Of a stretch of 64,000 nt of DNA, positions 1-55,101 are shown one piece after another. Both the position numbers and the translations under genes were made by a program. The DNA is taken from the NCBI RefSeq assembly GCF_042242105.1, contig NC_092033.1, forward strand, positions 1,322,908 to 1,386,907, in the 5' to 3' direction. The notes beneath the pieces are model-generated. The model saw nothing but the letters and a program-made list of their open reading frames with translations, searched no databases and was not told the DNA's origin. Numbering within the stretch: the first letter of the stretch is position 1; every line of letters starts with the position of its first letter. This stretch comes from Pempheris klunzingeri. Its lineage: Eukaryota > Chordata > Actinopteri > Acropomatiformes > Pempheridae.

Positions 1-1154
1 AAACAATTGTCTCCATAGTGCTGAAAATCATTATACACAATACAAATGGGGAACCTCACATACCTGTTCACAGCAGCTTTTCTTAACCTGGCTCCTCCAT
101 TCACACCCTTAAAGACAAAGGTCCAAAAAGCGCGAACCGCATGAGAAACCGCATGAATGCTCCAGCAACCTAGCTTAGCATCGTAAATTTGCATATTAGC
201 ACATAAATTAGCATATATTAGCACATAAAAGTGCTGTACTTTACAAAAACAACTGTACACTCCTGTACCAACTGACCTGAGGCCGTTAAACAGTCTGTGA
301 GTCTAACAGAACCCGCTATTTAACGCTTTTAGCATATTTTAACCTGTAGTGACGGAAACAACACTCACCTGTGCTCAGCGGGGCTCCAGCCGACTGAGAA
401 GGCGGGGCGAATTGACAGGTAGTGACGTCAGTGGAAGACCAAAAGTCATTTAAGAAAATAAAAGTCTTCCAGAATAAATTACAAAAATACATGGAATTAT
501 GTACACACTAACAATAAAAACAAAATGATCACTTGATCAAGGGGATGGATATTTGGTGAAATAAACATTGTTTGAACACACCTGTTACATATATATAGTA
601 TTTTTTTCCTTTTTCTTCCCACTAACAAATGGAGATGGTGCTATGGTCAGTGAACCCTTGGTAACAATGAGCCTTATAGAAACAGAATGAACAAACAAGA
701 CAACATCAAACTAGAATGAACAGAACAAGCAGAACATGTAGCTGCAGCAGAAAGACGGCGACTGATGTGTTCAGCATAACATCAATAACATCAGTTGTCT
801 AGTAGTGGTTCTGCACTGCTGAAACAAAAGAGGCTGCACTAGAATTATATAGTTGCACAGTAGCTGCAGTATCTACAGCAGCATTATTGGGCACCTTTGC
901 TTCATTTCAACCTCTTCATCAATATGACAAATATGAGTTCCCTTGACGAGGGGAATATTTATTCATTTTTTATTTTCAAGACATTATTACTATTATTTAT
1001 TTTATTTCATTTATTGTTTTAATTGTTTTTTCTTAAGGCTTGCAGCAGCGCCGTCTCTGCATACAGGGGAAACCCTCCTCCTTTTAGTGGACTCCATGAA
1101 ATTAGCAAAGCTCCAACACAAACACTAACATGCACATTTTGCACATGTGCTTCA
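1..1154. other. Intergenic, no gene recognised
   Basis: No coding sequence can be supported here. The stretch is AT-rich, with short repeats of the type TTAGCATATTAGCAC around 165-235 and a T-rich run around 960-1035. The few open frames are short and low in complexity. Confidence 0.5.
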
Positions 1155-1891
1155 TGCACTACTCACAAAAAGTTTGGGATATTCGGCTTTCAGGTGAAAT
1201 TTCAGGATGAACCACCACCAATACATTTCCTGCTTCAGTTAGAATTGGTATTTAAACAGTCCTCCTCATCCTGCTGTTCACATTCTGACATCATGAGACC
1301 AAGACGACACCTAACAGTTGATCAGCAGCACCTCAACACTGGAGGCTTCAAACAGGAAGTCCTCAGACGGAGGTGTTCACTGAGCTTAGAGGGTCACAGA
1401 GTGTCATCAGGAGGTTGGAACAGTGATACAGAGACTGGAAGAGTCACAGAAAGGAGAGGAGTGGACGTCCTTTGGCCACGTCCCAATTTTACGTTTACCC
1501 TCTGTTAGGAAATAGAAAATGTGCAGACACGCTTATGCTAATACATTTTTATGTTAGTACATTTATGCTTTATTATCATGAAGTTTTAGCCTGATGCTGG
1601 ACTGTGTGATGGTTGCTGTGACCTTTACACAGACCAAAGAGACGTGTGTTGGCGTAGGATGTATCAGACTGTGCTTGCATTCTTGAGATAAAGAAGAGTT
1701 CGAGAAGGCCTTGAACGGTGAGAAGTCAGCGTTTCTTTCAGTAAATTGTTTAAAATGAAGAAACTACCAGTGCATGCTTCTACTTAAATGTCCTACTTTC
1801 ATGATATAATATCACTGTAGCATTCACTTTTTATATTTTCCATAAATTTCACCTGAAAGTTGAATATCCCTAACTTTTAGTGAGTAGTGTA
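1155..1891 (+). mobile_element. Non-autonomous Tc1/mariner-like element, copy 1
   Basis: The ends form terminal inverted repeats: CACTACTCAC at the left, followed by a segment containing GGGATATTCGGCTTTCAGG, is mirrored by CCTGAAAGTTGAATATCCC and GTGAGTAGTG at the right. The right boundary is the TA expected of a Tc1 target site; the left reads TG. An internal frame encodes a fragment of the Tc1 transposase N-terminal paired-like region (starts MRPRRHLTVDQQ, later TETGRVTERR), without any catalytic DDE part. A second copy lies at 40534-41241. Relative to it, copy 1 lacks about 150 bp near the left end and carries about 230 bp of unrelated sequence (about 1490-1730) in place of about 70 bp. 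It cannot move by itself. Confidence 0.85.
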
Positions 1892-2388
1892 TGTGTTCTA
1901 AATCACACCAACACCCAAACCACTTCCTACCAGCGAAGCTTCGGGCCAATGAAGCAAGATAACAGACTTCCTGGACTTCTTGACACACTCCGATGCCTCG
2001 GCACAGTTTTTATATTAAATGTATACATATATATATATACACACAACAGGGTTTACTTCATGTTTGAAATTATTCTTTTCCACTTACGTCTTGTGAAGTG
2101 ATTCAGTGATTTGATCTGATGAAGATATTAATTTTGATGTTTTTTTCTGTAAATTCAAATCTCTTTTTTTTTGTAGATAGTGATGTTTACTCTTTACAGC
2201 CAGTTTACATCTCAGTTCATTTATATGTGTATACATTTACCACATTTGTGATGCTGTACTGTTTGCTGCTGGAAGAGCCTGAGAATTGTAATTGTTGTGT
2301 AAATGAAAGAAAAACAAAAAAACTTCATTCATCAGTATAAAATCTTCATTCAGGAACAGCAGTATGCAGGTGGGCTGCAAGAAGTAAT
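1892..2388. other. Intergenic, downstream of PYD-H1 gene A
   Basis: AT-rich sequence with a TATATATA run near 2028. It is presumed to hold the 3' untranslated part of the minus-strand gene A. No histone stem-loop and no clear AATAAA was found for that gene, so its 3' end is unknown. Confidence 0.4.
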
Positions 2389-3365
2389 TTACAACAAATC
2401 AAGTTTCTCATCAGCAAACAAAGACATGGAGGGTGTAGAAGGCAGAGAGAGCCGTCTCCCTGCGGCTGCTGCTGCCTTCTCGGCTGCTGCTTTCTTTGTT
2501 GCCGCCACCCTCTCGGCCGCTGCTGCCTTCTCAGCCGCCTTCTCAGCCGCTGCTTTCTTCGTTGCGGCCACCTTCTCAGCTGCTTCCGCCTTCTTGGCCA
2601 CTGCTGCCATCTCAGCAATTGCTTTATTTGCTGCCATGGCCGCCGTCTTGGCCACTGCTGCCTTCTTGGCGGCTGCTTCCTTCGCTTCAGCTGCTTTTTC
2701 GGCCGCCTTCTCGGCCGCTGCCACCTTCCCGACTGCTACCGCCACCTTGGCCACTGACGCCTTCTCAGCCGCTGCTTTCTTCGCTGTAGCAGCTGCCTTC
2801 ACTGCCTCTGTAGCCATCTTGGCCGCTAGCATCATCTCAGCCGTTGCTATCTTCGCTGCCTCCATGGCTGCAGGCTTCTTCACTATAGCGGGCTCTTTCT
2901 TGGGCCGCTTGGCTACTGGAGCTTCATCTGTCATCTCCACCTTAATGCATTCTGCTGTGTTTGTCAAGAGAGATCACATATTACATTTATTATATTTTCA
3001 ATTCTAAGATAAGATATTCCTTTATTTATCCCACAATGGGGAAATTTCAATTCTGACTGAAAATACAAATAAAATCAGAAGTGTGACTGACCTTCTGGTC
3101 CTGAACTGGTGCCTGGCAGCCTCTGCACCAGATCGTTCCTGTTCATCTTCTCTAAAACCTTCTTGGTCACCTTCAGAGCTCCATCAAGTGTGTAGGCCTT
3201 CACCATCAGATCCACCGTTTCCCCCCTCTCTGCCTTCTCCAACTGGCACTGTTTGATGGGCTTGTAGCCGCCCAGGACCTCAGGCTCCTTCAGATGCCAC
3301 AGGAAATCCTTGAATTCCTTGTCTGTTAAATCCTGCAGAATACTGAAAAGCACCATTGGCCCCAT
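2389..3365 (-). CDS. Pyrin-domain / H1-tail fusion protein, gene A (globular domain lost)
   Basis: Two coding exons on the minus strand: 3365-3092 and 2954-2389, predicted 279 aa. Exon one gives a PYD (residues 1 to about 86; core features EFKDFLWHL, LEKAERGETVDLMV, VLEKMNRNDLVQRL) like those of fish NLR proteins. It starts at an ATG in strong Kozak context (GCCACGATGG), 13 nt after an acceptor TTTCAG. The donor is AAG|GTCAGT; the acceptor is ACAAACACAG|C, phase 1, and the frame is kept. Exon two resembles an H1 start (MTDEAP, like MAEEAP of canonical H1), then a basic KRPKK cluster (residues 107-111, likely nuclear localisation signal) and an Ala/Lys/Glu-rich tail of KAAAEKAAEKAA type. No winged-helix globular domain remains and there are no SPKK motifs. 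IKVE at 95-98 fits a SUMO consensus. There is no histone stem-loop downstream, so normal polyadenylation is expected. Role unknown; a nuclear PYD protein is inferred. The PYD is certain by motif; the splice is predicted. Confidence 0.7.
3006..3044 (-). mobile_element. Tiny LINE 3'-tail insertion in gene A intron
   Basis: A 39-bp piece containing TTTATTTATCCCACAATGGG, the reverse of a common fish LINE 3' tail, is flanked by the direct repeat TTTCAATTCT (2996-3005 and 3045-3054). The matching intron of gene B (around 10028) has one TTTCAATTCT and no insert, so this is a clean insertion with a 10-bp target duplication. Confidence 0.8.
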
Positions 3366-3377
3366 CGTGGCTCCCTG
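3366..3377 (-). promoter_or_regulatory. 5' leader and 3' splice site of the PYD exon, gene A
   Basis: On the minus strand a pyrimidine-rich tract (CATTTTTCCTTCTGG) ends in TTTCAG, followed by CAGGGAGCCACG and the ATG. The tandem CAGCAG gives two alternative acceptors. This implies an upstream non-coding exon. Confidence 0.6.
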
Positions 3378-3951
3378 CTGAAACCAGAAGGAAAAATGTG
3401 ACACCAAACTATCAGAGCAGCAACAGAAGCTCTGATCGACACCAGAGCAGGTTTTAGCTCTGGAAATAGTTGCTGAGTTCAAACCAGCTCATCACACATT
3501 AAAGTCTCCTCACAGAGTGACTCAGCCGCTCTGATTAGCTCTGCTGTCCTTGTACCTGCTGTTTTCAGGTCTGACTTGGCTGTATTCTAACAATATTTTC
3601 ATTTTTAAAACTAAATGCCAATAACATCATCTACAAGACTCCAGAAAATACAGTGAACACAATCTACTATCTACTACTGCACCACTGGTGTTAACCTCTT
3701 ATGGGCCACATAAATATGAATCATGATGAATCAAATATGAAATCAGCTGTGAGACATAATTTCCCCATAAATTATACACGTATTAAAAAGACATGCTGGT
3801 TGTAACAACTGTGCAGATATTCTGATCACACATAGTTTACAGGTCTGAACAGGTAAACTGTGGTTTCTTTTCCAGGAAGTTGGTTACAACTCTAATCTCT
3901 CTTTTCTGTAGAAACTAAATCAGAAGCCGTAACAGCAAAGGAAGAACTTTC

Positions 3952-4130
3952 ACTTACACTTCGATCGACAGAGACGACTGCCAGAAGTCCACAAAAAGGG
4001 AAATAAAACAGTGAAAATGTGGTTCAAAGGTTCTTCCTGTTTCTTTAAAATGAGCTGCAGTGAGCGGGCTGAGCCCTGATTGGTCAGACTGAGAGAGAGA
4101 GGAGCCAATCAGCAGTGGATCATCATCATA
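3952..4130 (-). promoter_or_regulatory. Candidate promoter and first exon, gene A, unit 1
   Basis: Reading the minus strand: two CCAAT-type boxes (GATTGGCT near 4108, GACCAATCA near 4078), a TTTTAAAG box, then GAAACAGGAA at 4043-4034, which fits an IRF-ETS composite motif (GAAANNGGAA). About 75 nt later CGAAGT|GTAAGT (donor at 3957-3952) makes a good 5' splice site for a non-coding first exon. The transcription start is not determined. Confidence 0.5.
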
Positions 4131-4137
4131 ATTACAC

Positions 4138-4630
4138 AATTTCCCCATAAATTATACACATATTAACAAGGCATGCTGGTTGTAACAACTGTGGCTGTGT
4201 TCAACAGATTTGCTGATCACAGGTAGACTGTGGTTTATTTTCCAGGAAGTTGGTTACAACTCTAATCTCTCTTTTCATCTGTGGAAACTAAATCAGAAGC
4301 CGAAACAGCAAAGGAGGAAGTTTGACTTACACTTCGGTCAACAGAGACGACTTCCAGAAGTCCGAAAACAGGGAAATAAAACAGTCCTTCAAAGGTTCTT
4401 CCTGTTTATGAAGGATAGATAGATAGATAGATAGATAGATATTCCTTTATTTATCCCACAATGGGGAAATTTCGAGTCATCAGCAGTTCTGATTCACACA
4501 TACAGAAAATGTGGTTCAAAGGTTCTTCCTGTTTCTTTAAAATGAACTGCAGTGAGCGACTGAGTAGACAAAGAGAGAGCAAGGGAGAAGAGAGAGAGAG
4601 AGAGGAGCCAATCAGCAGTGGATCCCTCCA
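4138..4630 (-). promoter_or_regulatory. Candidate promoter and first exon, gene A, unit 2 (tandem duplicate)
   Basis: This repeats unit 1 from the segment starting AATTTCCCCATAAATTATAC. It keeps the donor CGAAGT|GTAAGT (4330-4325), the GAAACAGGAA motif (4535-4526) and a CCAAT-type box (about 4608). A 107-bp insert (4408-4514: GATA repeat plus LINE 3' tail) is bounded by a 20-bp direct repeat that duplicates the ETS/IRF segment; the inner copy has lost the GAAA half. Confidence 0.45.
4408..4514 (-). mobile_element. LINE 3'-tail insertion with GATA repeat
   Basis: A (GATA)n run at about 4415-4440 is followed by TTTATTTATCCCACAATGGG, the reverse of a fish LINE 3' end. A 20-bp direct repeat (4388-4407 and 4515-4534) bounds it and reads as a target-site duplication. 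Confidence 0.6.
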
Positions 4631-5089
4631 AACCCACAGGAAGCTGCAGAAAAAACAAAGTTTCTCTAAAAAACTGTGCACAGAAAAAAACACAGGGCCA
4701 GTAGGAGCTCTTTGACTGGGCTGCAACAGTCTCTGTTACTTTAAATGCTCCACTGGACTCTTGATGAATGAAATTCTCTTGTCTCTGTTACGCCAAACTA
4801 ATTCTTACTTTCGCCCAGAAGCTACAAAAGATTTTGAGATGAGTTTAAATGTGTCTCCTCTCTTACTGCTGTTGTAATAATGCTCTGTGTTTGTCCTAAA
4901 AAAGACTTAAGACTTAATTTACAGCTGCAGACAAACATACTGCAAGCTGCATTGTTTTTAAAGTTAAATAGTCTTAAAGATCCACTTTTTGCACTTAATT
5001 TCTTACATTTGCAGCTTTACGGCTTGTTACATGTATGAAAATAGATTATTAACTTGTTCTTCGGGTCCACGTCATCCTTGTTTCCTGCT
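4631..5089. other. Upstream flank of gene A, shared with gene B
   Basis: No gene. Two blocks recur near gene B: GGGCTGCAACAGTCTCTGTT (about 4717 and about 11428) and TAATAATGCTCTGT (about 4874 and about 12949). They show that the segmental duplication reaches at least to 4905 and about 12985. Confidence 0.5.
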
Positions 5090-5318
5090 AATGAAAACTT
5101 CAGAGTGCAGCACAGGGGCCGGTTCTCTCCTCACCTCACACTTCAGACACAAAGCTGTAGACGGTCACATCCACAAGTTCAGTGATGATGCAGCCGTGAG
5201 TGGACGTGGACGAACTGGCAGGTCTGAACTCAACCAGCTTCACATCAACGCTGGCAAGACCAAGGACACGACGATCGACTTCAGGAAGAAAAAAGGCACA
5301 TTGACACTGTTATTTTAG
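5090..5318 (+). mobile_element. LINE reverse-transcriptase fragment
   Basis: The open frame reads HIHKFSDDAAVSG and later LNQLHINAGKTKDTTIDF. This is the palm region of a fish non-LTR reverse transcriptase around the catalytic F-x-DD box (here FSDD). It is a short piece, truncated at both ends and degenerate. Confidence 0.75.
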
Positions 5319-6179
5319 GGACATTTTATGGATCTCTTCAATAAAATGTGGGAAACACTCATGCAAAGTATCTAAACTTAATGCCTCTGTGGCGCTTTAC
5401 TGGTTTATTTCTATCTTTCATCCAGTTTCCAGCCTGAAGCATCACTGCTTTTATATGCAGACATTATATTTACACACACACACACACACACACGGATGAA
5501 TAAAACTTTTAAACTAGATGCCATAATAAAAAGATATTCCTTTATTTGAAATTTACAAAGTTACAATTGACAATAGAATTAGAAATGCTGATAATCAATC
5601 TGATTTGAATGTACTTCTGCATTGCAGTCACATTCATTTTGACTTTCATACAATATTTGAATCAGTTTTGAATTCTGCATGAGAGACAATGTGATGTTTA
5701 TGTGATGGTTACCGACCGATAACAAAGTCGAGGCTTACTTCCGGCAACAATCACACAAAAGAGCCAAAACACCACATGGTCTCACATGGTTTTGAGTTTC
5801 ACTTCATGGGCGCCGCCATCTTTGATCGTTGCCACCAGAAGTGACGTGCGTGCAACATAGGCCACCTCTGATTGGTCAGTCCCATCCTAGTCCCGCCCTA
5901 AGGCACATCCAGCTTTACAGTCCATCTCCCTCTAAGTAACACCATAACTTACTAAATGAACCTCCTGCGGTGCTGAAGAAGACCGTAAACTAGCGACTGA
6001 GAGCAGAAAATGTTCACTGAGCTGATAAATCAGGAGAGAAATCGCCTCAATGTCTCTCCGTTCAGACCCGGAAGTACAGTCTCCTCATTCAGTCTGAATA
6101 TAAACAAGTGTTTCCGGTTTGGAAAACAACAACAATAATATTGCAGAGTGGGAAGAGGCTCTTTCAGGGGCGTGTGGGC
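5319..6179. other. Intergenic with CA microsatellite and GC-rich block
   Basis: A (CA)n run lies at about 5472-5493. Around 5810-5860 there is a GC-richer block with GCCGCCATCTTTG (YY1-like) and GTGACGTG (CRE-like), reminiscent of a promoter, but no associated gene could be found on either strand. Confidence 0.4.
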
Positions 6180-6195
6180 GGCTCTGTAAAGAGCC
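6180..6195 (-). terminator. Histone 3' stem-loop (divergent H1)
   Basis: The minus strand reads GGCTCTTTACAGAGCC and fits GGYYYUHURHARRRCC with a UUAC loop. A downstream CTGAAAGAGCC resembles the U7-binding histone downstream element. It lies 27 nt after the stop codon, so the H1 gene at 6223-6798 is probably cell-cycle processed. Confidence 0.9.
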
Positions 6196-6222
6196 TTTGG
6201 TGTGGGTGTTTACAGACTTCTC

Positions 6223-6798
6223 TCATGAGATGGCCTCCTCCTTAATCTCAGTCTTAATCTCAGTCTTAAATGTCATCTTTTCATCTTTACTCCCGGAGCA
6301 GGCCTCCTCGGCTTCCTCTGCCTTCATGGCCGCTAATTCCTTCTTTTTCTCGGCTCTCTTTGCCGCTAACTTCTTGTTTCTCGCGGCTTTCCTTGCTGCT
6401 AATTTCTTCTTCCTGGCAGCTTTCTTCTTCGCGGCTTCCTTTTTCGCGGCTTCGGACTTCTTGCGTTTGGGCACAGGCCTGTTCTTGTTCACCTTGTAGG
6501 AGCCGCCGGCTCCCGTCCCTCTGGTCCGGATCAGGATCCTCTTCTCCACCAGCAGCTTGATGCAGGAGTTGAAGCGGGTGTTCCTCTTCTCCATGTCGCA
6601 CCCGAAGGCGATCAGAGCCTTCTTGATGGCGTAGGCCGACACCCCGCCCCGCTCGTTAGCTGCCTCCACGGCCCTGATGATGAGTTCACTCAGGAGGGGG
6701 CGTTCCTTTCGCTTCCGCTGTACCACCTGAGTCTGGGCCGCCGTCGCCGGGCCTGGAGAAGCGGCGGCGGCTGCTGAGGTGGGAGCTTCTTCTGCCAT
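6223..6798 (-). CDS. Divergent linker histone H1
   Basis: Single-exon gene of 191 aa. The N-terminus is MAEEAPTSAAAAASP; a winged-helix globular domain spans about residues 33-105 (LLSELIIRAVEAANERGG, KKALIAFGCDMEK, RTRGTGAGGSYKVNK); a Lys/Ala/Arg tail (AAKKEAAKKKAARKKK) follows. It differs from canonical fish H1: the usual [27 protein letters not shown] region reads NSCIKLLVEKRILIRTRGTGAGGSYK, there are no SPKK repeats, and the C-terminus is acidic. FKTE, IKTE and IKEE there (Lys178, 182, 186) are three adjacent SUMO-consensus sites. A stem-loop follows the stop. The promoter has a TATA-like TTTAAAAG and the H1 element shared with the two canonical H1 genes. It could be a germline or early-embryo H1, but that is a guess. 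It is intact. Confidence 0.88.
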   Translation of the reverse strand: MAEEAPTSAAAAASPGPATAAQTQVVQRKRKERPLLSELIIRAVEAANERGGVSAYAIKKALIAFGCDMEKRNTRFNSCIKLLVEKRILIRTRGTGAGGSYKVNKNRPVPKRKKSEAAKKEAAKKKAARKKKLAARKAARNKKLAAKRAEKKKELAAMKAEEAEEACSGSKDEKMTFKTEIKTEIKEEAIS

Positions 6799-6860
6799 GG
6801 CAGCTTCTTCTGGCGGAGAGACTCACAGCGAGACTGACGGCGAGACCGGAACAACGGCTG

Positions 6861-6893
6861 CTTTTAAACTCCCCATGAGAGCCGTGGAGACTG
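6861..6893 (-). promoter_or_regulatory. H1 proximal promoter of the divergent H1
   Basis: The minus strand reads CAGTCTCCACGGCTCTCA (6893-6876), then after 7 nt TTTAAAAG (6868-6861). The first block matches GAGTCTCCACGGTTCTCA of the canonical H1 promoters with two changes and has the same spacing to the TATA-like box. Confidence 0.65.
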
Positions 6894-6899
6894 AAGCCC

Positions 6900-8130
6900 G
6901 CCTAAACATGGCGGCGGTGCTGAGCCTGAACCGGAACCGTTTCTCTCTCACCTGCTGATGATCAGTTTGTTATAAAGTCACATTATTGTGGCAGCAGCAA
7001 ACACACAGGATGGCTGGAGCTGCACCCCCACTTTTAGATTTAAACTGGTTCTATCATGTGTGAATATGTGCATTAAAAACAACATTTAGTTTTCTTCTAT
7101 GAACTCTGTGAGTTTTCCAGAGAAGTGTTTGTCTTCTTCTTTCTTGGTTTTTCAAAAAAGAAAAAAGGATTCAGGTTCTGTTCCAGTTTCCTGAACACAA
7201 AATGCAGGGTCACTGTTTTTCTAACTTTTCTATCCTGCAGCACACCCTGCTGACAGCACTAGGTTTTTAATTATAAATAAAAACAGTAGTCACTCCAGTC
7301 TACACCAATAGATTGTGGTTTCTTCTCTTTTAAAACAAAGTGTAAAAAACATTGTGTTAGTCGCTGAGTGTCATATCTTAATCAATACATTTTAGGTTAA
7401 CGAGATTATTAGGTTGGACATTTTAATCAATACATTATGTAATATTCACACCAAGTGATGTCTCAACATTTGATACCACATGAATCTGGTCTGGACATCC
7501 AGGGTCAGTAATTCAGTGTTTTTAAGCATCTGCAAAGAAACAAAACAGCTTTTATTTTCCTAGAAATCACAGGAAGTCTTCTGTCCCATCAGGCACAGTG
7601 AAGATTAAGAAACAGCTGATTTTTTTTTTTATTGTTTTTTGTTTCATCCTCACCTTCCTGATTGACAGCTTTATTTTAACCCTAAGTTTACAACACGTTT
7701 CATTTTCTTTTACATGTTTCTTCATGTGTGATTCGTTCTTTTACCACCGACTTCAGGCCAGTTTGTGACATTGCTCAGTACAATTTACTTCAATTATTTA
7801 AATTAAATTGTTCGTGTTCATTTATCTGTTTGGTGCCTAATGTGTATTTAACTTTATGCCCAATTTGAGGCCAATTTAGATTCTATGGTGGACAAATGCC
7901 TCCTTCATTTCATTTACTTATATGATGTTCACTTTACAAAATTACAGAATCTTTCTTCTTGTCCTCCAAATCCAAAATAAGCAGAAATCAGACCCGGAGG
8001 AGCAGAACCGCCTGAATGGTTGCCACAAAAGTAAAACATGGACTACAAGTACTAAAAGTACTACAAGCTTGTAATAAATCCTGATTGATCAATCCAACAT
8101 TACAAACACATGATTCAGGAGCTGCTCTTC
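6900..8130. other. Intergenic, no gene recognised
   Basis: AT-rich sequence without supportable coding regions. A CpG-bearing stretch to about 6960 belongs to the divergent H1 promoter; the remainder shows only short T-rich runs. Confidence 0.5.
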
Positions 8131-8277
8131 AGATTAGGGCTTTCACACCGGCAGGGCTCCCAAACCTGATTTTGAACCAGCCGGCGTGTTCAAAACGGGA
8201 AAAAAATGGTTTGGAACCTGAAAAGTTGGTTCTCAACTGGAACCAAAAAATAGTCGGTTCTTCTCTCGCGAACTGTG
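8131..8277. repeat. Possible hAT-like non-autonomous repeat piece
   Basis: The stretch contains GGTTTGGAACCTG, GGTTCTCAACTGGAACC and GGTTCTTCTCTCGCGAAC, a GGTTC/GAACC-rich pattern seen in small fish DNA-transposon derivatives. It interrupts the tail of the broken H1 copy next to it. The family is not certain. Confidence 0.35.
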
Positions 8278-8722
8278 CGAACTTCTTTGCTGCTGGTTTC
8301 TTGACCAGTGCCTTCTTCTGGGACTTCTTGGGGGCAGCTACTTTCTTGGCCACCGCTGGCTTCTTTGCTGGCAGTTTCTTGGCCGCTGCTTTCTTAGCGA
8401 CGGGCTTTTTGACTTCAGCTAGTGTGTTTTTAGCCATTTTCTTGACATGCTTGGCGGCTTTGGCCTCTTGGGCAGCTTGAAAGAGCCGGTGGCCCCGAAA
8501 CCTTTGGTCTGGGTCAGGGTCCCATCACGCACCAGGTTTAAGGTGACGATGTTGCTGTGGTTGTAGCTTTTAGCCACATCCACTCCTTTGGCGGCCAAAA
8601 CCTTTTTGAGCGCCGGCTGTGAGAGCCCCTTATGCTCCCTGGACTCAGCCACAGCAGTGATGATCTGCTCCTGGAGGGTGGGAGCTTCCTGTCTGGGATG
8701 TGGAGCCTGAAGGTTGCTGGAT
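8278..8722 (-). pseudogene. Broken H1 copy related to the PYD-H1 genes
   Basis: The minus strand encodes an H1 globular domain in one frame (about 8722-8460: [42 protein letters not shown]) and a Lys/Ala/Pro tail (KKPVAKKAAAKKLPAKK) in another frame (about 8437-8283), so a frameshift separates them. The beginning matches gene B (TSSNLQAP, RQEAPTL). No start codon, leader, PYD exon or acceptor is visible upstream, and repeat-like sequence replaces the end of the tail. It keeps the GATGSFKL segment that gene B has lost, so it preserves an older state of the family. Confidence 0.8.
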
Positions 8723-9293
8723 GTTGCCAAAAAGCATGAACCAAGAAAATTTTGTATTTAACAATGAATGATCCAAAAAACAGTTCAAAATATAGTTATA
8801 TATACACATATATTTAGAGAAATATTACGTCGCTACAATTATTCAATATCATATTCAATTCAATTATACAATATCATCTCCTCCTGCATTATAATCTGGT
8901 GATAGAAGACAGCAGGGGGATTGTTTTGTGTGAGAGGAAAGACAAACAGATTTATGACCACAGGTCGTAGAATATAAGTTGTTCTTTTGAGTATTTAACA
9001 TGACAATTTGATTTTGATGGAAAAGTCAACCACAGAGAAAATTTTCAATAAACATACAACGGGGAACGGATTCAAAGGATCTCTGCAAGTGCTTTATAGT
9101 TGTACTGTGCGTCTAATCTCTACCTAACCTTCAGCAACCCACATGGAAAAGTTGCCCCCACACAATGGTTACCAAAGTGTGGGTTGTGGCCCCCTGGTGG
9201 GTCGTGTAAGTACAGCAGGTGGGCTGCAAGAAGTAATTTACAATAAATCAATTTTCAAGGGTTAAAAAGGTAGAGAGAGCCGTCTCCCTGCGG
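8723..9293. other. Spacer between broken H1 copy and gene B
   Basis: No gene. AT-rich to about 9110. From about 9210 it is homologous to the region after gene A (GGTGGGCTGCAAGAAGTAAT in both), marking the 3' boundary of the segmental duplication. Confidence 0.5.
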
Positions 9294-10347
9294 CTACTGC
9301 GGCTTCTTGGCCGCTGCTGCCGCCATCTTGATCACTTCCACCTTCCTGGCAGCTGCTTCCTTCTCTTCCATGGCCAAAATCTCAGCCACAGCCGCTTCCT
9401 CTGCATCTACTTTCTTCATTGCAGCATTCTTTTCAGCCGCTGCCGCCTTATCAGCCGCCTTCTTGGCGTCTTCTTTCTTCAGTGTGGACTCCTTGGTTGC
9501 TGTTTTCAGTGCCGCAGCTGCCTTCTTGGCTGCTGTTTTCGCTTCCGCAGCTGCCTCCTTGGCAGTTTCTGCCTCCTTGGTGGCTTGTTTATTCACTGCG
9601 GCCGCCTTTTCAGCCGCCTTCTTGGCAGTTTCCGCCTTCTTGGCTGCTGTTTTTGCCGCCGCAGTTGCCCTCTTGGCTGCTCCCGCCTTCAGCTTGAAGA
9701 AGATGATGCCATTGTTGTTGGTCTGGGTCAGAGTCCCTTCACGCACCAAGTTTAAGGTGACCCTGTTGATGTCCTTGTTGCTTTTGACCACATCCACTCC
9801 TTTGGCGGCCAAAATCTTTTTGAGCGCCGGCTGTGAGAGCCCCTTACGCTCCCTGGACTCAGCCACAGCAGCGATGATCTGCTCCTCAAGGGTGGGAGCT
9901 TCCTGTCTGGAAAGTGGAGCCTGAAGGTTGCTGGACGTTGTGGCTGCTGGAGCTTCGTCTCTCATCTCCACCTCAGTGCTGTCCGCTGTGTTTGTTGAGA
10001 CAGATCACATATTACAATGGTTATATTTTCAATTCTGACTGAAAATACAAATAAAATCAGTTGTGTGACTGACCTGCTGGTCCTGAACTGGTGCCTGGCA
10101 GCGTCTGCACCAGATCGTTCCTGTTTATCTTCTCTAAAACCTTCTTGGTCACCTTCAGAGCTCCATCAAGTGTGTAGGCCTTCACCATCAGATCCACCGT
10201 TTCCCCCCTCTCTGCCTTCTCCAACTGGCACTGTTTGATGGGCTTGTAGCCGCCCAGGACCTCAGGCTCCTTCAGATGCCACAGGAAAGCCTTGAATTCC
10301 TTGTCTGTTAAATCCTGCAGAATACTGAAAAGCACCATTGGCCCCAT
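9294..10347 (-). CDS. Pyrin-domain / linker-histone fusion protein, gene B
   Basis: Two coding exons on minus, 10347-10074 and 9985-9294, predicted 321 aa. Residues 1 to about 86 form a PYD (EFKAFLWHL, LEKAERGETVDLMV, VLEKINRNDLVQTL). The donor is CAG|GTCAGT and the acceptor ACAAACACAG|C; phase 1 joins in frame as GPA-ADSTEVEM. From Met99 (MRDEAPAATTSS) it follows an H1: a winged helix at about 121-190 ([28 protein letters not shown]) in which [10 protein letters not shown] is replaced by NNNGIIFFKL, then a Lys/Ala/Glu tail without SPKK motifs, ending AAAAAKKPQ. PYDs self-assemble in inflammasomes and H1 winged helices bind nucleosomal or linker DNA, so a nuclear or cytosolic DNA-linked scaffold is inferred. 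No stem-loop follows. Internal Met99 could yield an H1-only product. The fusion rests on predicted splicing across an 88-bp intron. Confidence 0.75.
9986..10073 (-). other. Predicted 88-bp intron joining PYD and H1 exons, gene B
   Basis: The minus strand begins GTCAGTCACAC and ends CTCAACAAACACAG. CTCAAC lies at a plausible branch-point distance, but the pyrimidine tract is poor, so the acceptor looks weak. The final bases match the 5' leader of the canonical H1 gene. Confidence 0.65.
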
Positions 10348-10948
10348 CGTGGCTCCCTGCTGAAACCAGAAGGAAAAATGTGACACCAAACTATCAGAGC
10401 AGCAACAGAAGCTCTGATCGACACCAGAGCAGGTTTTAGCTCTGGAAATAGTTGCTGAGTTCAAACCAGCTCATCACACATTAAAGTCTCCTCACAGAGT
10501 GACTCAGCCGCTCTGATTAGCTCTGCTGTCCTTGTACCTGCTCTTTAAAACTACAGTACAACTAGTTGCACAGGTCTGACAGGTTCTAACAATATTTTCA
10601 TTTTTAAAACTAAATGCAAATAACATCATCTACAAGACTCCAGAAAATGCAGTGAACACAATCTACTATCTACTACTGCATCACTGGTGTTATAGGACAC
10701 ATAAATATGAATCAAACAAAGTCCTGCTCAAACTGACGGGATGAGAAATCAACAGTGAGACATAATTTCCCTATAAATTATACACGTTAACAAGACATGC
10801 TGGTTGTAACAACTGTCGCTGTGTTCAACAGATTCGCTGATCACAGGTAGACTGTGGTTTATTTTCCAGGAAGTTGGTTACAACTCTAATCTCTCTTTTC
10901 ATCTGTGGAAACTAAATCAGAACCCGTAACAACAAAGGAAGAACTTTG

Positions 10949-11135
10949 ACTTACACTTTGATGAACAGAGATGACTTCCAGATGTCCAAAAGGGAAATAA
11001 AACAGTGAAAATATCGTTCAAAGATGCCACAGTTCTTCCTGTTTCTTTCGGATGAGCTGCAGTGAGCGGGCTGAGCCCTGATTGGTCAGACTGAGAGAGA
11101 GAGGAGAAAGAGCGGGAGAGAGGAGCCAATCAGCA
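10949..11135 (-). promoter_or_regulatory. Candidate promoter and first exon, gene B
   Basis: On minus: CCAAT-type boxes at about 11124 and 11079, GAAACAGGAA at 11045-11036 (IRF-ETS composite type), then a splice donor AAAGT|GTAAGT at 10954-10949. The arrangement matches units 1 and 2 of gene A. It implies a non-coding first exon spliced to the PYD exon at about 10359. Confidence 0.5.
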
Positions 11136-11991
11136 GAGGACACACTACAGGCCAAATCCACCTGGTGGAGAGTTGCGGAAAAAAAAAAAAAATCAAAAAA
11201 CTTTATCTATATAGCACCAATTCATAACAGCGTTATCAAGACGCTTTCCAAACAAAGAGAGAGACAACACAAACAGGGACGAGGTTCCAAAATGCAACTG
11301 GTAGTGGTGTCGTCGCGAACTAATTGGTTTTTCTCATATTTTTTCTGTTAAAGCCGCAATACAAATAATATATATTCGATATGTGTTCTTTACGTTAAGA
11401 TAACGGGCAATAGAAGCTGTTCGACTGGGCTGCAACAGTCTCTGTTACTTGCTCCACTAGACTCTTGATGAATTTGCCACCTTTAATGTATTTCATAAAC
11501 GCTAAATGGAAATTAGGTTTACACTGAAGTGACAGCGCCCTCTAGTGGCCGCAGGAGTTGTGCCTCTTGTCTGTTACGCTGACACCAAACTAATTCTTTC
11601 AAGTGACTTCGCTGTCACTGACAAAGTCAAAATAAAACCATGAGAGTTTTGATAGAGCTCCCATCACCTCCATGGTTTTGTGTTAGGTCATGAATAACAT
11701 ATTTTAACATACGTTTATCCTGAATAATGAGCGTGAACGTTGTCAGCAGCCAACAGGAAGCAAACCAGGTAGATAGTAAACATGAAGGATGTGAAGAAGT
11801 CTTAGTCATCTCAGACTGAGGAAGAGGAGGAGAAACTGGTGGCGTGTTGTCCTTTTGTTACAATGATGGAAAAAAGTGGACAGAAACCTCACAGAGTGCT
11901 GTAATGTTAATCAATATAGCTAGCTAGCTACTGTCTGCAGTGATGTACTGTAAGCTGACGTTAGCTCCTGTTTGCTATTAGCCTATGTCGT
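11136..11991. other. Upstream flank of gene B
   Basis: No gene. Homology to the flank of gene A runs in patches to about 11600 (GGGCTGCAACAGTCTCTGTT, CCAAACTAATTCTT). An A-run lies at about 11178. Confidence 0.45.
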
Positions 11992-12878
11992 CGTGTTGGT
12001 TTTTTTCGATGAAGGACAGGCAACTTCTCTCATTTAAGGTGTTTTATTTTCTGTGTGAATAAGTATTGATCTTGATCAAGGACTCAGTCTGAGCTCTGAA
12101 AACCACAGTCAGCAAGCTGTTAGTCTGCAGCCAACAGGTCCCAGAGTGAACCCTGAAACACATATGTAGTAACAGTATATACATTCCAGCATGAATACAA
12201 TTATTTCTGATTGGTCGTCTAGTTGGGGAGTAACCGTGGTTTAGACTTGGCCCTCCCTTGCTGGTCCCAGCCTCTTGGCATCACAACCTTCCAGTCAGTA
12301 TCCACCTGCAAAGAAAGTATCCCCCTGATGGCCTTTCCCTATCATGTGAGTGCTCCATACAGTAGAGACATTCTGAGAGCGTCCCTCTCCTGCAGCTATC
12401 TCATCCTTTCATTACAATAAGGTCGTCTACCAGCCATAAACGTCCCACCTGACCATCATGTGTCTGACCCTTCAGAACCTGGGGCCAGTGCTGGTTCCCC
12501 TCAATAACAACTATGGGGTATGGCTCTTCCCTGTAGCGATACATTGCATTAATGTCTCTCCCTGCAAATATAATACAGCACATACATTGTTAGTAAGAAC
12601 TGAGCATCCAGTGTATCATAGAAGGTGGCTCTAATGGTTGATTATGTAGTACTATTAGTTCACTCACAGGTCACTTAGTTCAAATAAAGGTTATTCAGTT
12701 TAATATAGTGTAGTTATTTTATATGGTGTAGTTATACAATGGCTAATGTTAATTCAAATCCAGTGTTTTACAATGTTAGTTATACATGTAATATTGTTAG
12801 TACAAATTTAAGGCACACAGTGTAATGTGTTTGAGCCCTTTATAAGTAGTGATTAAAAGTAGTATTAAATTCCCCACA
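11992..12878 (+). repeat. Dispersed repeat, copy 1 (887 bp)
   Basis: It is closely matched in the same orientation at 30003-30985. Both begin CGTGTTGGTTTTTTTCGATG and end TTCCCCACA. The minus strand has an open stretch in both copies (EEPYPI, GNQHWPQVLK, QTHDGQVGRLW), which may be a relic of a coding exon. The family was not recognised, and no clear terminal repeats or target duplication were seen. Confidence 0.7.
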
Positions 12879-13022
12879 CCTACAAGCTGACAAAGACTTC
12901 TAGATGGATCTGTATAAATGTGGCTGCAGAGCTGCTCTTACTGCTGCTGTAATAATGCTCTGTATTTGTCCTAAAAGTCGTCCTGAATCAGATCTTTACA
13001 GATCACCTGGGTGACCAAGGCA

Positions 13023-13100
13023 GATCTTGGGTCTGATCCACGAGGAGGTCTTCACCTACACCGAGCACACCAAGAGGAAGACGTGGTGTACGCCCTTTCA
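13023..13100 (+). pseudogene. Histone H4 relic
   Basis: The frame reads LGLIHEEVFTYTEHTKRKTWCTPF. It aligns to H4 GLIYEE, then [11 protein letters not shown], then VVYAL, with the segments between them missing. About 78 bp remain, so it is a decayed H4 copy with internal deletions, on the opposite strand to the neighbouring H2B-H4-H2A trio. Confidence 0.75.
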
Positions 13101-13568
13101 GCATTCAAATATAGACTATTCAGACATAGAAAAGTCATTGAAGTAAATCTAAATATATATAGATCAAACCTGAACTATGAATATGGCAGAATATAAAGAC
13201 CATTTCATTCAAATTTGCATATTTCTGATGCATTCACTTTATAAGTTATGAAGCATTGATCCCTCCTACACTGAAGTAGAGTAGAAAGGATCAGTAATAA
13301 TGGACCTGTAGTCACTTTTGCAGCAGCTCACTCCCTTATAAGGTCATAACAGTCTGCTCATCCTCCAAAATAAAAGCCAGCATCCAGACTTCCAGTTCAC
13401 TGCATGTCAGGATCAGTTAGTACTTCACTGACGTGAAACTAGTTTTATATCACCTTAGCTAATTAAATCCAGCTACACTGAGAACAGTTCAGTCTAGTTA
13501 CAGGACAATTATCAAACCAGGAGTCAGGACATTAAACAGGACAGCAGCTCTTTCCTGCAGCAGTGGGC
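13101..13568. other. Spacer, no gene recognised
   Basis: AT-rich spacer between the H4 relic and the minus-strand H2B gene, with no supportable feature beyond the downstream region of H2B. Confidence 0.5.
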
Positions 13569-13584
13569 GGCCCTGAAAAGGGCC
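13569..13584 (-). terminator. Histone 3' stem-loop (H2B)
   Basis: The minus strand reads GGCCCTTTTCAGGGCC, a perfect six-pair stem with a UUUC loop, 25 nt after the H2B stop. Confidence 0.95.
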
Positions 13585-13609
13585 TTTGTGTTGCTGGATG
13601 TCAGCAGCT

Positions 13610-13978
13610 TTACTTGGAGCTGGTGTACTTGGTGACCGCCTTGGTGCCCTCGGACACGGCGTGCTTGGCCAGCTCACCGGGCAGCAGCAGGCGGACGGCG
13701 GTCTGGATCTCCCTGGAGGTGATGGTGGAGCGCTTGTTGTAGTGAGCCAGACGGGAGGCCTCACCGGCGATGCGCTCAAAGATGTCGCTGACGAACGAGT
13801 TCATGATCAGCATGGCCTTGGAGGAGATACCGGTGTCCGGGTGCACCTGCTTCAGCACCTTGTACACGTAGATGGCGTAGCTCTCCTTCCTGGTCCTCCT
13901 CTTCTTCTTGCCGGTCTTGGTCACTTTGGACACGGCCTTCTTGGAGCCTTTCTTCGGGGCTTTCACGGTCTCAGGCAT
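13610..13978 (-). CDS. H2B: Histone H2B
   Basis: 122-aa single-exon core histone, pairing with H2A in the nucleosome. N-tail [18 protein letters not shown], basic [28 protein letters not shown]-helix ending AVTKYTSSK. At the end of helix 1 to start of helix 2 it reads [19 protein letters not shown], where the usual form (and the H2B at 39088) has G and N at residues 57 and 64. The same L57/S64 pair occurs in the H2B at 24361. An octamer and a CCAAT box lie upstream on the minus strand and a stem-loop follows. Complete and intact. Confidence 0.97.
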
Positions 13979-14051
13979 GTTTCCCTTTCGTTGTTGTACC
14001 GACTAGGATAGAGTGGAAAAAGTGACCGAGCACTACATTTATATCAACGTG

Positions 14052-14089
14052 ATGCAAATAAGACTGTACTGTTGCTCGCATCCGATTGG
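14052..14089 (-). promoter_or_regulatory. H2B promoter: octamer and CCAAT box
   Basis: The minus strand carries ATTTGCAT (14059-14052), the octamer through which Oct-1 drives H2B in S phase, and a CCAAT box (14089-14085) just upstream. Confidence 0.85.
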
Positions 14090-14109
14090 TTGGCTTTTGA
14101 GGGAGACTG

Positions 14110-14716
14110 AGCATGCGCAATACTGAGACTAATACAATTTTGTTTTTAAAACTGAATAATAATAATAATGCATTTTATTGGTGCACTTTACACTTTACAT
14201 TAGCAAATCTCAAAATAATTGAGTAAATAATAACTGTAATAAATAACAAGAGTGAAATATCACTACCAAACCAAACGTTTCTGGCATTTCATTGTTTTGA
14301 TTATAGACTTTAGATTTAAAACACGTTGATTTATTCTCATTTCATCCTTAAATCATCTCTCTGTTGTAATGAGACAGCTGCTCTTTAAATTAACTCAGGT
14401 TTGACTATGAACCTCCTAGAACGGTTAGTAGTACAGACAGCAACATCGGGAAAGATGTTTTATTCTTTACTATATATAAATATATTTATAGTGAAAGGTG
14501 TTAATGTCAACACATGTAAAAGTTTTATTTACTTTCTTTACTATCAATAACGGTAGTATAGGATATTATTATGATATGTTAGTCATATTATTGTAATGAT
14601 AATTCAATTTTAATAAAAATAAAATACGCAATATATCAGTATGAAGTGTATTAAAGCAACATTCAAAAATAAAATAAGGCACATATAAGGAAACAGCCTC
14701 TCCAGGTTGAGTGTGT
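14110..14716. other. Spacer between H2B and H4
   Basis: AT-rich sequence with no gene or recognisable repeat family. Confidence 0.5.
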
Positions 14717-14732
14717 GGCCCTTAAAAGGGCC
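14717..14732 (-). terminator. Histone 3' stem-loop (H4)
   Basis: The minus strand reads GGCCCTTTTAAGGGCC, a perfect stem with a UUUA loop, downstream of the H4 stop. Confidence 0.95.
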
Positions 14733-14766
14733 TTTGGGTGTCAGATTGAGGGGATGAGGGTCTGGT

Positions 14767-15105
<339 letters not shown>

Positions 15106-15151
15106 TCAATGTTCGGTTTGTCAGCAGAGCTTCGCTTATTGAAGCTTGACT

Positions 15152-15159
15152 GCGGACGT
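15152..15159 (-). promoter_or_regulatory. HINFP-type H4 promoter element
   Basis: The minus strand reads ACGTCCGC within AACACGTCCGCA, 74 nt upstream of the H4 ATG. The same core occurs at all four H4 promoters in the window; HINFP is the known H4-specific S-phase activator and binds GTCCGC cores. Confidence 0.7.
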
Positions 15160-15199
15160 GTTAGAAGACAGATGACGCTGGTTTCAGTGGGAGGAGCCA

Positions 15200-16429
15200 A
15201 ACTCAGCTTCCTACAGTTACAGAGAAAATTATATTTTGTTTTTATTTCCAAATGTCTTAAGATACATTTTGATTTATAAACATTTTAATGACAAGAATTC
15301 ACAAGAGACCAGATCGATTCATCCTGTAATGTGTTTTATTTACTGCCAATAAGTAACATCAATAATAAGAAAGATAACTTTATAGGCATGTAGCAAAAGA
15401 AAATAGAGCCAAATGTCACTTTACATTCAGTTATTATGGTTTAAAAAGACTTTTCTTAAATAAGGAACAAACTAAAGTCAAACTTTCTGATTAAAGTAAC
15501 TCGTATTTTTATCTGTGATCAGACTTTAAGGGTTCAAGGTTCATTTGTCATCTTTCCACAGTGAAGCTGAAGGTTTAATCCCGTCATGATACAAACACAA
15601 TAAACTGTTAAAACAGATCATTTGATTCAGAGAAGAACAGACAGGAAACAACTAATCTAAATCTAATGTCTGTAGTTTATCTACATTCACTCGTTTCTCC
15701 TCAGGAAATGATTCTGCAGAACATTTTTTAAAGTGCATCTGTGGAGACAAACATTAACAGGATGATGATATTGTGGCCTAAATCTTCACAAGATAAATTA
15801 TTTTAGGCAGGTTTTGTTGCTCTTTGTTGGTTTTAATTATTTATGTGATGCTATAAAAGAGGGTAAGATGACGTCCATGGACCAAGAGAGGATCCAGAAT
15901 CACCATCAGGTGTTTTAAACACTGACGATGGCTCACTGTACATTAATCTGAACATCAGTTTCACACTGAAGGACAATAATCTGACATTAGTTCAATAATT
16001 ATTTAACTGCTTAAACTATAGATCATCATTTCTGTCTGCAGAAACAGAAGTGATCTGTTTGAACTGAATATTGTTTGTTTATTTATCAAGATTGAGTGAA
16101 AGCATTTTAAGTGGAGCACAAACTGAGGTAGCAAAGATTCTGGAGAGGATTCAGAGTAAAATAACTAGAAACTAATTTAATGCAGCACTTTTACTGCTCA
16201 CATGTATTTAGTTTCTTATTTACACTCCTGGAGGTCACTGACTTCAAACCCCAAACCTGCAATATATGGTTTATTTATACTTCAGTTGTTAAAGGACTCC
16301 TTTGTCTCGGTATAATTTTATGTCTTTGACTTGATTTTTGAAATCTCATTGTGAGCAAGTCAGATATGATAAACTGGATTAAAATGACTCGGTGTTTTAA
16401 TAGAATGAGCTCTTGATGTAGGAGTGGGT
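15200..16429. other. Spacer between H4 and H2A
   Basis: About 1.2 kb of AT-rich sequence with no open frame of note, no recognisable repeat and no RNA gene seen. Confidence 0.5.
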
Positions 16430-21342: not shown

Positions 21343-21984
21343 ATGGCAGAAGAAGCTCCAGCAGCAGCGGCCGCTCCGGCCAAAGCCCCGGCTAAGGCTC
21401 CGGCTAAGGCCGCCAAGAAGAAGGCCGCTCCCCGGCCCAAGAAGGACGGACCCACCCTCCCAAAGCTGATCGTCACCGCCGTGGCCGCGTCCAAGGAGCG
21501 GAAGGGGCTCTCGGTGGCGGCGCTGAAGAAGGCTCTGGCCGCCAAAGGAGTGGATGTGGCCAAAAGCAATAAGCGCATCAACAGCGCCGTCATCAAGCTG
21601 GTGGGGAAAGGGACCCTGACCCAGACCAAAGGGACCGGGGCGTCCGGCTCCTTCAAGCTGGCCAAGGAGCCCAAGGCCGCCAAGCCTGTCAAGAAAGCGG
21701 CGGCTAAGAAAGCTCCGGCTAAGGTCAAGAAGCCCGCGGCTAAGAAAGTAGCGGCCAAGAAACCGGCAGCAAAGAAGCCCGCAGCCAAGAAAGCAGCTGC
21801 CCCCAAGAAGTCCCCGAAGAAGGCACCGGCCAAGAAAGCAGCGGCCGCTAAGAAGCCGGCAGCAGCCAAGAAGAGCCCCAAGAAGGCTGCTGCTCCCAAG
21901 AAGAGCCCCAAGAAGCCCGTCAAGAAGGTGCCAGCCAAGAAAGCTCCGGCTAAGAAACCTGCAGCCAAGAAGGCCAAGAAGTAA
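21343..21984 (+). CDS. H1: Linker histone H1 (canonical)
   Basis: 213 aa, single exon. Ala/Pro/Lys N-tail ([16 protein letters not shown]), winged-helix globular domain at about residues 34-108 ([54 protein letters not shown]), then a Lys/Ala/Pro C-tail with several SPKK motifs that bind linker DNA and are CDK sites. Full H1 promoter and stem-loop. The globular domain ([18 protein letters not shown]) is the closest relative in the window of the H1 part of the PYD-H1 genes, and its 5' leader contains ACAAACACAGCAGA (21313-21326), exactly as at their splice acceptor. Confidence 0.97.
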
Positions 21985-22034: not shown

Positions 22035-23149
22035 TCCACAGCCTCTACAGAGCAAATCCTCCTTAATGTCTTTATAATGTGGGATTCATCTTCACAACAC
22101 TCCGCTTTAAATCCATAATTTATTACAAGTTTACAGTGTTTTTGTTTATAATGTGTCCTTTGCTAAGGCGACATGAGCCTGAATTCTAGTATTGGATTGA
22201 TAATCCTGTCAATCTATTTTAGGCAGAACTACATGAAACACATTAAAGCAGTTAGTAATAACATTCCTTTATTAGTCACACAACAGGGAAATTTTGCATT
22301 CATTATATATGTAAACAGTATTATAGATGATTATGTAAGTATTTCTAGTTTGTGTCATTTCTACAATCTTTTTCACACATTACTTTTATATTATTTATGT
22401 CAGTGGCCAGAGGTCTAACCTTGTTTGTACCTTTTTTTTAGTCTCCATGTTAGCAGGTTACCAGTGAAATACTTTACCACAGTCCTCTGCTAACACTATG
22501 CTAGCTAGCATCAGCACTGTGCTCTGACAGCTGACTAGCTCAAGTTAATTATAGCCCATAAATTAATGTTATGTTAGCCTGGTCAGTGTCGTCTGCAGTA
22601 ACTTAGTAGCCTCTGAAGAACCCAGACCCACTACAACATATCCTTCATGAGGCTATGAACTTTTATATAATATTAGCTTGTTAGACTCTACAAAGAGGAT
22701 TAGCGCTCACAGGCTCATTGTCCTGCCCTGTATATGCTCTCACTGACAAGCGTCTTTTCTATTAACATAAATTGCTAATAACATAAATAACATGGATATA
22801 AAATCCATGAATAGGGATATTCATGGATTATATATATATATATATAGATTATATATAGATAGGATTAGGTTTGGTGTGTAGCCCCTAAAATAAGATAAAC
22901 TAATGCAAGGTCAAGACACACAGGTGACTCATTTCACTCACTGGCGAATGAGCAGCAGCTAACACACAAGCATGTTGCGTTAGCATGTAGCTTGGGGCCA
23001 TAAAACTTTTCTATCAGGATCTTTTTCAGCACCTGGTGGGGGAACAAATCAGAGATCAGTGATGTGGGATTTAATCCCAGTGCAACAAACTATACAGCAT
23101 CTCTTCACCACACTGTTATTAATTTAAACTGGTTTGTTTAAGTGCGAAC
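22035..23149. other. Intergenic, no gene recognised
   Basis: AT-rich. A perfect 12-bp inverted repeat (AATCCATGAATA and its complement around GGGA) lies at 22802-22829, followed by a TATA repeat. No gene. Confidence 0.5.

Positions 23150-55064: not shown

Positions 55065-55101
<37 letters not shown>

Follow-up and report, generated by a model that had tools for sequence, protein, structure and literature searches.

We identified a predicted gene that joins a pyrin domain (PYD) exon to an exon derived from a linker histone H1 gene, and found it to be one of six open copies of this arrangement on a single contig of Pempheris klunzingeri. The gene, g1, lies in the window, that is, the 64,000-nucleotide stretch of contig C22 that was analyzed, and a histone cluster of H1, H2A, H2B, H3, and H4 genes fills much of the first 46 kb of this window. 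The best overall explanation, to which we assign a probability of roughly 0.6, is a lineage-specific PYD family with a captured H1 gene, acting in signaling or regulation and using the H1 module for a new purpose. That the PYD-H1 loci are real fused protein-coding genes is highly probable from their structure. The functional half of this explanation, a PYD signaling or regulatory protein with an H1 platform, is put forward more tentatively.

The initial annotation of this stretch had described a PYD exon and an H1 exon on one strand, 88 bp apart and matching in phase 1. This proved exact (coding segments 10347..10074 and 9985..9294), with both domains recovered by Pfam (Table 1). The PYD coding sequence comprises 274 nt and ends at the donor CAG/GTCAGT (the slash marks the exon boundary), and the acceptor directly before the H1-derived exon reads ACAAACACAG. 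The PYD exon is itself preceded by an acceptor, TTCTGGTTTCAG, and its ATG stands in a good start context, GAGCCACGATGG. Judged by eye, the pyrimidine tract of the g1 acceptor is weak and the donor carries C at +3. The predicted joined product has 321 amino acids. Its first exon matches PYRIN with an E-value of 4.2e-22 (78.5 bits against a cut-off of 22.9), and residues 30-93 of the second exon match Linker_histone with an E-value of 4.1e-10 (40.2 bits against a cut-off of 22.4). By sequence, the closest solved relatives are the NLRP4 PYD (4ewi, E 5.8e-7) and the GH1 domain of 1ghc (E 1.2e-10); statements on the folds of the two exons are drawn from sequence families alone.

Table 1. Positions of the fused genes and of the histone H1 features discussed in the text (window coordinates, except for copies A to D, which are given as positions on contig C22).
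Feature	Position	Strand	Remarks
g1 PYD exon	10074..10359	-	5′UTR 10359-10348, ATG at 10347, coding to 10074, ends in phase 1
g1 intron 2 (predicted)	9986..10073	-	88 bp, phase 1, GT-AG
g1 H1-derived exon	9294..9985	-	in phase with the PYD exon; stop TAG 9296-9294
g1 GH1 winged-helix segment	9687..9899	-	within the H1-derived exon; tblastn and Pfam
Former H1 start codon in g1	9963..9965	-	ATG; 20 nt into the exon; in register with four canonical H1 genes
Probable non-coding first exon of g1	10955..11080	-	donor-like AAAGT/GTAAGT at 10954; upstream boundary provisional
g2 PYD coding exon	3092..3365	-	Pfam PYRIN E 2.2e-22; protein 96% identical to g1
g2 H1-derived exon	2389..2954	-	frame open; H1 start register and K/A/E tail kept; without GH1
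H1 fragment "ps"	8504..8726	-	DNA 91.5% identical to the g1 GH1 stretch
Canonical H1 gene, local reference	21343..21984	+	Linker_histone E 6.3e-21
Strongly diverged single-frame H1	6223-6798	-	Linker_histone E 3.2e-14; acid-containing C-terminus
Family copy A	1274627	+
Family copy B	1279434	+
Family copy C	1301184	-
Family copy D	1321171	-

Using the g1 PYD as a query against the genome (646 Mb, one assembly), we obtained 69 PYD matches. The best ten were g1, g2, four others on C22, three on C20, and one on C3. The four other C22 PYDs lie within 60 kb and are 62-76% identical to g1, and the C20 PYDs are 64-73% identical. In all four of these C22 relatives, an H1-derived exon follows 86-97 bp behind the PYD exon. 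All six C22 copies (A to D, g2, and g1) have a 274-nt PYD coding sequence ending in phase 1, the donor (C or A)AG/GTCAGT, the acceptor ACAAACACAG, and a GT-AG intron, which measures 86, 88, 88, 88, 97, or 137 bp. The 12 nt preceding the PYD ATG are identical in every member, and a donor-like GTAAGT-type site occurs no more than 1.1 kb upstream in five, including g1; none was seen there in C. The predicted products range from 279 to 383 amino acids, with an open second exon of 187-291 codons. PYRIN exceeded the Pfam cut-off in all six copies (E 1.3e-15 to 2.2e-22) and Linker_histone in five (E 6.1e-6 to 1.5e-17), g2 being the exception. As the same exon, intron, and phase recur at six loci with open frames, the PYD-H1 arrangement is far beyond chance. 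The earlier proposal that g1 encodes a PYD-H1 protein is thereby strengthened at the level of the predicted gene, since splice sites are kept, frames are open, and the H1 ATG is lost in two of the six related loci.

The exceptional copy, g2, is 88.5% identical to g1 across 1.1 kb. Their PYD coding exons differ at four nucleotides, each of which changes an amino acid. The g2 second exon begins at the same place as that of g1 and gave no Linker_histone match in Pfam; in this one copy of the six, the predicted exon has lost GH1 in frame. The presumed promoter and first-exon region upstream of g2 (3754-4624, minus strand) is a tandem repeat with self matches of 80-84%, and the repeat gives rise to two GTAAGT donor-like sites within 1.1 kb.

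A reciprocal view was obtained with the Linker_histone model, which found at least 26 places in the genome, four of them the fused copies A, B, D, and g1. Copy C was not among the places listed, yet it was found by tblastn and Pfam. Comparing the lists by eye, we saw no further PYD within 2 kb upstream on the same strand of the H1s listed, except in the case of the fragment at 8504-8726, for which the g1 PYD is 1.4 kb upstream. This fragment is without a start codon, and its tail is in another frame; it is probably a pseudogene, or else a donor or recipient of the GH1 module.

On C20, one copy has kept the PYD and the start of the H1 exon, and it has lost the acceptor and carries a stop inside GH1. 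As read from its exons, this copy is dead and visibly decayed. One of the other two C20 PYDs has unrelated sequence behind the donor, and the third matches that one there; no GH1 was found in C20:950000-959900. In the PYD tree, the fused PYDs and the three C20 PYDs form one clade (support 0.979). The fused GH1s, together with "ps", are split from the other local H1s compared (support 0.995). Copy g2 pairs with g1 by its PYD and with A by its H1 exon and tail, and this divided affinity suggests sequence exchange between copies by gene conversion. Two partial PYD matches were seen beside B and C (C22:1281341-1281526 and 1299353-1299538; residues 38-91, 44% identity), possibly remnants of older PYD exons in the cluster.

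The origin of the second exon can be read at its acceptor. Upstream of the ATG, the four canonical H1 genes read GACAAACACAGCAGAGCG, and at the corresponding place the fused genes have G or A followed by ACAAACACAG and then the exon. The acceptor falls exactly 20 nt before the aligned H1 start codon. A 54-mer of g2 across the acceptor and the H1 start is identical to H1 in register at 38 of 54 positions; the best value in unrelated window sequence was 30, over 16,946 positions on both strands. This in-register match of the 5′UTR and start indicates that the second exon derives from an H1 gene captured together with a portion of its 5′UTR. In B and C, the H1 start register reads ATA and the exon is still open, which means that these two exons can be read through the PYD only.

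As a source of the PYD, exons of the NLR type or PRY/SPRY type are plausible. On C3, a FISNA-NACHT frame follows one PYD exon on the same strand (NACHT E 1.5e-33); on C2, one PYD exon is followed by a coiled-coil PRY/SPRY frame. Both relations are ones of adjacency. Among the seven non-fused PYD loci viewed, all have GTCA at the place of the fused-gene donor, and five have GTCAGT. Such donor-like sites would make exon shuffling a sufficient source. At about 2.33-2.41 Mb, C2 also holds a PYD array, with six on the plus strand spaced about 5 kb apart, and the one locus read is pyrin-like. This locus contrasts with a teleost review stating that pyrin is absent (PMC9978379).

We propose the following course of events. 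A PYD exon with a phase-1 donor would have landed upstream of an H1 gene in the histone cluster, where the ACAAACACAG stretch of the H1 5′UTR would have turned into a 3′ splice site. Reading would then have continued from the PYD across the old H1 5′UTR and ATG into the H1 coding region. The fused gene would have multiplied within the cluster to give the six open copies, with one more decaying on another chromosome. Freed from histone constraint, the H1 part would have lost its basic charge and had its tail replaced.

We then considered the open frames and the selection acting on them. Had the family evolved without constraint, its H1 exons should have accumulated about 15 nonsense changes and its PYD exons about 4, and none was observed in the open frames compared; the estimate is rough, as it counts the open part only and assumes independent substitutions though the copies exchange sequence. 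The repetitive tail aligns poorly, and the stops at the 3′ end fall at differing places, g1 ending earliest. The introns of the copies differ by 2, 9, and 49 bp, and the exons remain in frame. Codon models did not detect net purifying selection in either the PYD or the H1 part. The M0 estimate of omega for the six fused PYDs was 1.47, which does not differ from 1 (P 0.22); for the beginning of the H1 exon together with GH1 it was 1.29 (P 0.39), and GH1 taken by itself gave 1.10 (P 0.78). With omega near or above 1, the H1 part could be a passenger, and relaxed constraint could explain the values.

A mixture of conserved and fast sites was favored for the six fused PYDs (M2a versus M1a, P 0.0025). 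When the three C20 PYDs were added, M0 omega was 1.61 (P 0.07) and the M2a versus M1a comparison gave P 0.0007. The corresponding P values were 0.039 for the H1 exon start plus GH1 and 0.12 for GH1 alone. Among the 15 PYD pairs, dN exceeded dS in 11 (one with a dS of 0), and 5 of the 15 reached a bootstrap of 0.95. We rejected positive selection as a special proof of immune function, because control PYD groups of the same genome behaved likewise (C3, P 0.009; C2, P 0.0001) and because gene conversion can inflate such tests.

The H1 part has changed markedly in charge. The net charge of GH1 is +6 in A, -2 in B, -2 in C, +3 in D, and +4 in g1 (66-71 residues), compared with +13 over 73 residues in the canonical local GH1, the segment ends differing by a few residues. 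At the protein level, four GH1 copies of canonical type within the cluster are identical, and the fused GH1s diverge. Four of the five fused GH1s have an altered basic wing loop with a changed wing-loop lysine; only A retains the wing KGTGASGSF, in the form KGIGASGSF, and g1 reads NNNGIIFF. The tail of g1 carries a net +8.5 per 100 residues, with 19 acidic residues and 1 Pro in 130, against +40 per 100 in the canonical H1 tail, with 1 acidic residue and 17 Pro in 105. The tail of the diverged H1 at 6223-6798 is intermediate (+18.6 per 100, 14 acidic). The alanine/lysine/glutamate tail of g1 is expected to be helical rather than disordered and basic as in H1. Whole-protein pI values are 5.5 for B, 5.4 for C, and 9.5-9.7 for A, D, g1, and g2. 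Copies A, D, and g1 may still bind DNA, which is unlikely for B and C.

We also examined the surrounding cluster for features of ordinary histone genes. Each of the four canonical H1 genes has a TATAA 53-70 nt ahead of its ATG. A promoter within the intron of the fused genes, which would drive an H1 product without the PYD, is conceivable. Rfam gave five histone stem-loops above threshold in the whole window. A looser scan of positions 1-16000 added two weaker ones, at 13545 and at 6156, making seven distinct in all; the latter (6156-6200, E 0.41) accompanies the diverged H1. Of the fused genes, g1 and g2 were scanned, and no Histone3 stem-loop was detected behind either (9294 and 2389) at E up to 1. 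This absence is weak evidence, since the gathering-level scan misses a visible stem-loop behind the H1 at 21343. Elsewhere in the window, we noted open stretches that resemble remnants of a LINE reverse transcriptase (23142-23561 and 29022-29432, both plus strand), and others, at 53670-55125 (plus strand), that resemble CNOT2 exons and may mark one edge of the histone cluster.

PYDs assemble through homotypic contacts, as established for ASC and NLRs. In the captured-H1 model, the PYD would make homotypic contacts, either with ASC or in competition with NLR PYDs, and GH1 with the helical tail would form a ligand-binding or multimerizing platform. The exons found contain neither a catalytic nor a NACHT part, and the proteins could act by seeding or blocking PYD assembly, the H1 part serving as sensor, tether, or multimerizer. 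For this model, we infer transcription, splicing in vivo, PYD partners, and a ligand. According to one study, zebrafish caspy2 binds LPS via its PYD (PMC6076302), so a fish PYD need not depend on a partner domain for its ligand.

It could be argued that a PYD pseudo-exon simply stands upstream of an H1-like gene or pseudogene and that the two are never spliced together. The weak-looking acceptor and the lack of net constraint in codon models are consistent with this, as are the degenerate H1 fragment 1 kb downstream of g1 and the ATG at the H1 start register of g1, from which an unfused H1-like product is conceivable. However, the six copies share one arrangement with the same splice-site motifs and phase, the H1 ATG is missing from B and C, no stem-loop was detected behind g1 or g2, and the nonsense calculation speaks for a read second exon; we regard two unrelated neighbors as improbable. 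More improbable still is a variant linker histone with a PYD appendage, working in chromatin, for example in germ cells or S phase. Although the genes lie in a histone cluster whose core histone and H1 genes look intact, and the tail of the diverged H1 shows that a less basic tail is known locally, the g1 tail and all five fused GH1s are far less charged than canonical H1, the predicted structure is spliced, and the stem-loop was detected behind neither g1 nor g2.

Two further readings are narrower versions of the captured-H1 model, and their odds overlap with it. The initial annotation had suggested a DNA- or chromatin-linked PYD adaptor, and in an AIM2-like form, GH1 and the basic tail would bind dsDNA or nucleosomes, cluster the PYDs, and seed ASC filaments. 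The appeal of the idea is that one study found no PYHIN genes in zebrafish (PMC3458909) and that AIM2 is reported missing from teleosts in the review mentioned above (PMC9978379); a HIN search of the present genome gave 0 matches, with control genomes likewise empty. The PYD is joined to a domain with DNA-binding relatives, A, D, g1, and g2 are basic overall, and the GH1 of A is almost complete. The trend in sequence nevertheless opposes simple H1-like DNA binding: the charge of GH1, +13 in the canonical local gene, has dropped to values of -2 to +6, the B and C proteins are acidic, the wing-loop lysine is changed in four of five GH1s, and one copy in six is missing GH1. We therefore consider a DNA sensor unlikely, and a scheme in which teleosts would have built their own PYD-based DNA or chromatin sensor from H1, with A, D, and g1 binding and nucleating ASC and with B, C, and g2 as tuners or decoys, is doubtful to the same degree. 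Slightly less unlikely is a regulator in the style of PYD-only proteins, whose PYD would work against ASC or NLR PYDs, either as a decoy or as a dominant-negative, with the H1 part as a tether or passenger for which DNA binding would not be required. The copy g2, which is without GH1 and has an intact PYD and frame, fits this reading, as do the GH1 omega of about 1 and the fact that no NACHT or other effector family was found in the exons scanned. A pure passenger, however, should decay as the C20 copy did, whereas the H1 exon is open for 187-291 codons in six copies against about 15 stops expected.

Among the matches listed in open-licence PMC text (titles and starts of abstracts), a PYD-H1 protein was not described. 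A match combining PYD and histone in fish (PMC9310644) was a false lead, as "PYD1" in that paper denotes a yeast vector. If expressed, the genes described here would constitute a PYD family that arose by histone-gene capture, with a PYD partner domain not described among the papers listed. The captured 5′UTR that supplies a splice site would be a worked example of immune genes arising by exon capture, and the family would be a candidate stand-in for AIM2-type receptors in fish. With basic, acidic, and GH1-less copies in one genome, the role of DNA binding by the H1 part is directly testable.

The predicted proteins can be compared with several known systems. Like PYHIN/AIM2-like receptors (PYD plus HIN-200), they combine an N-terminal PYD with a domain that has DNA-binding relatives, but the partner is GH1 with an Ala/Lys/Glu tail rather than HIN-200, no HIN match was obtained with Pfam in the fused exons scanned, and at least two copies are doubtful DNA binders. 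Fish PYD-FISNA-NACHT NLRs, of which one locus was read on C3 by adjacency, share a related PYD exon in which a donor-like GTCA occupies the corresponding position; in contrast, the fused PYDs and the C20 copies form their own clade, and Pfam scans of the fused exons revealed no FISNA, NACHT, or other effector family. Pyrin-like PYD-coiled coil-PRY/SPRY genes likewise have a related PYD exon adjoining another module, whereas the C-terminal module here is H1-derived and not TRIM-type. Replication-dependent H1 genes share the GH1 sequence, the in-register 5′UTR and start, and the location in the histone cluster. Those genes, however, are intronless with a 3′ stem-loop, and the fused genes are predicted to have two coding exons, with no stem-loop detected for g1 and g2. 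The fused family also differs from linker histone H1 in its low charge, the g1 tail being neither strongly basic nor Pro/Lys-rich. PYD-only proteins (POPs) carry a PYD without a partner domain. The fused proteins resemble them as small PYD proteins in which no catalytic domain was found and for which a decoy role is possible, but unlike POPs, all six copies retain an open H1-derived second exon of 187-291 codons.
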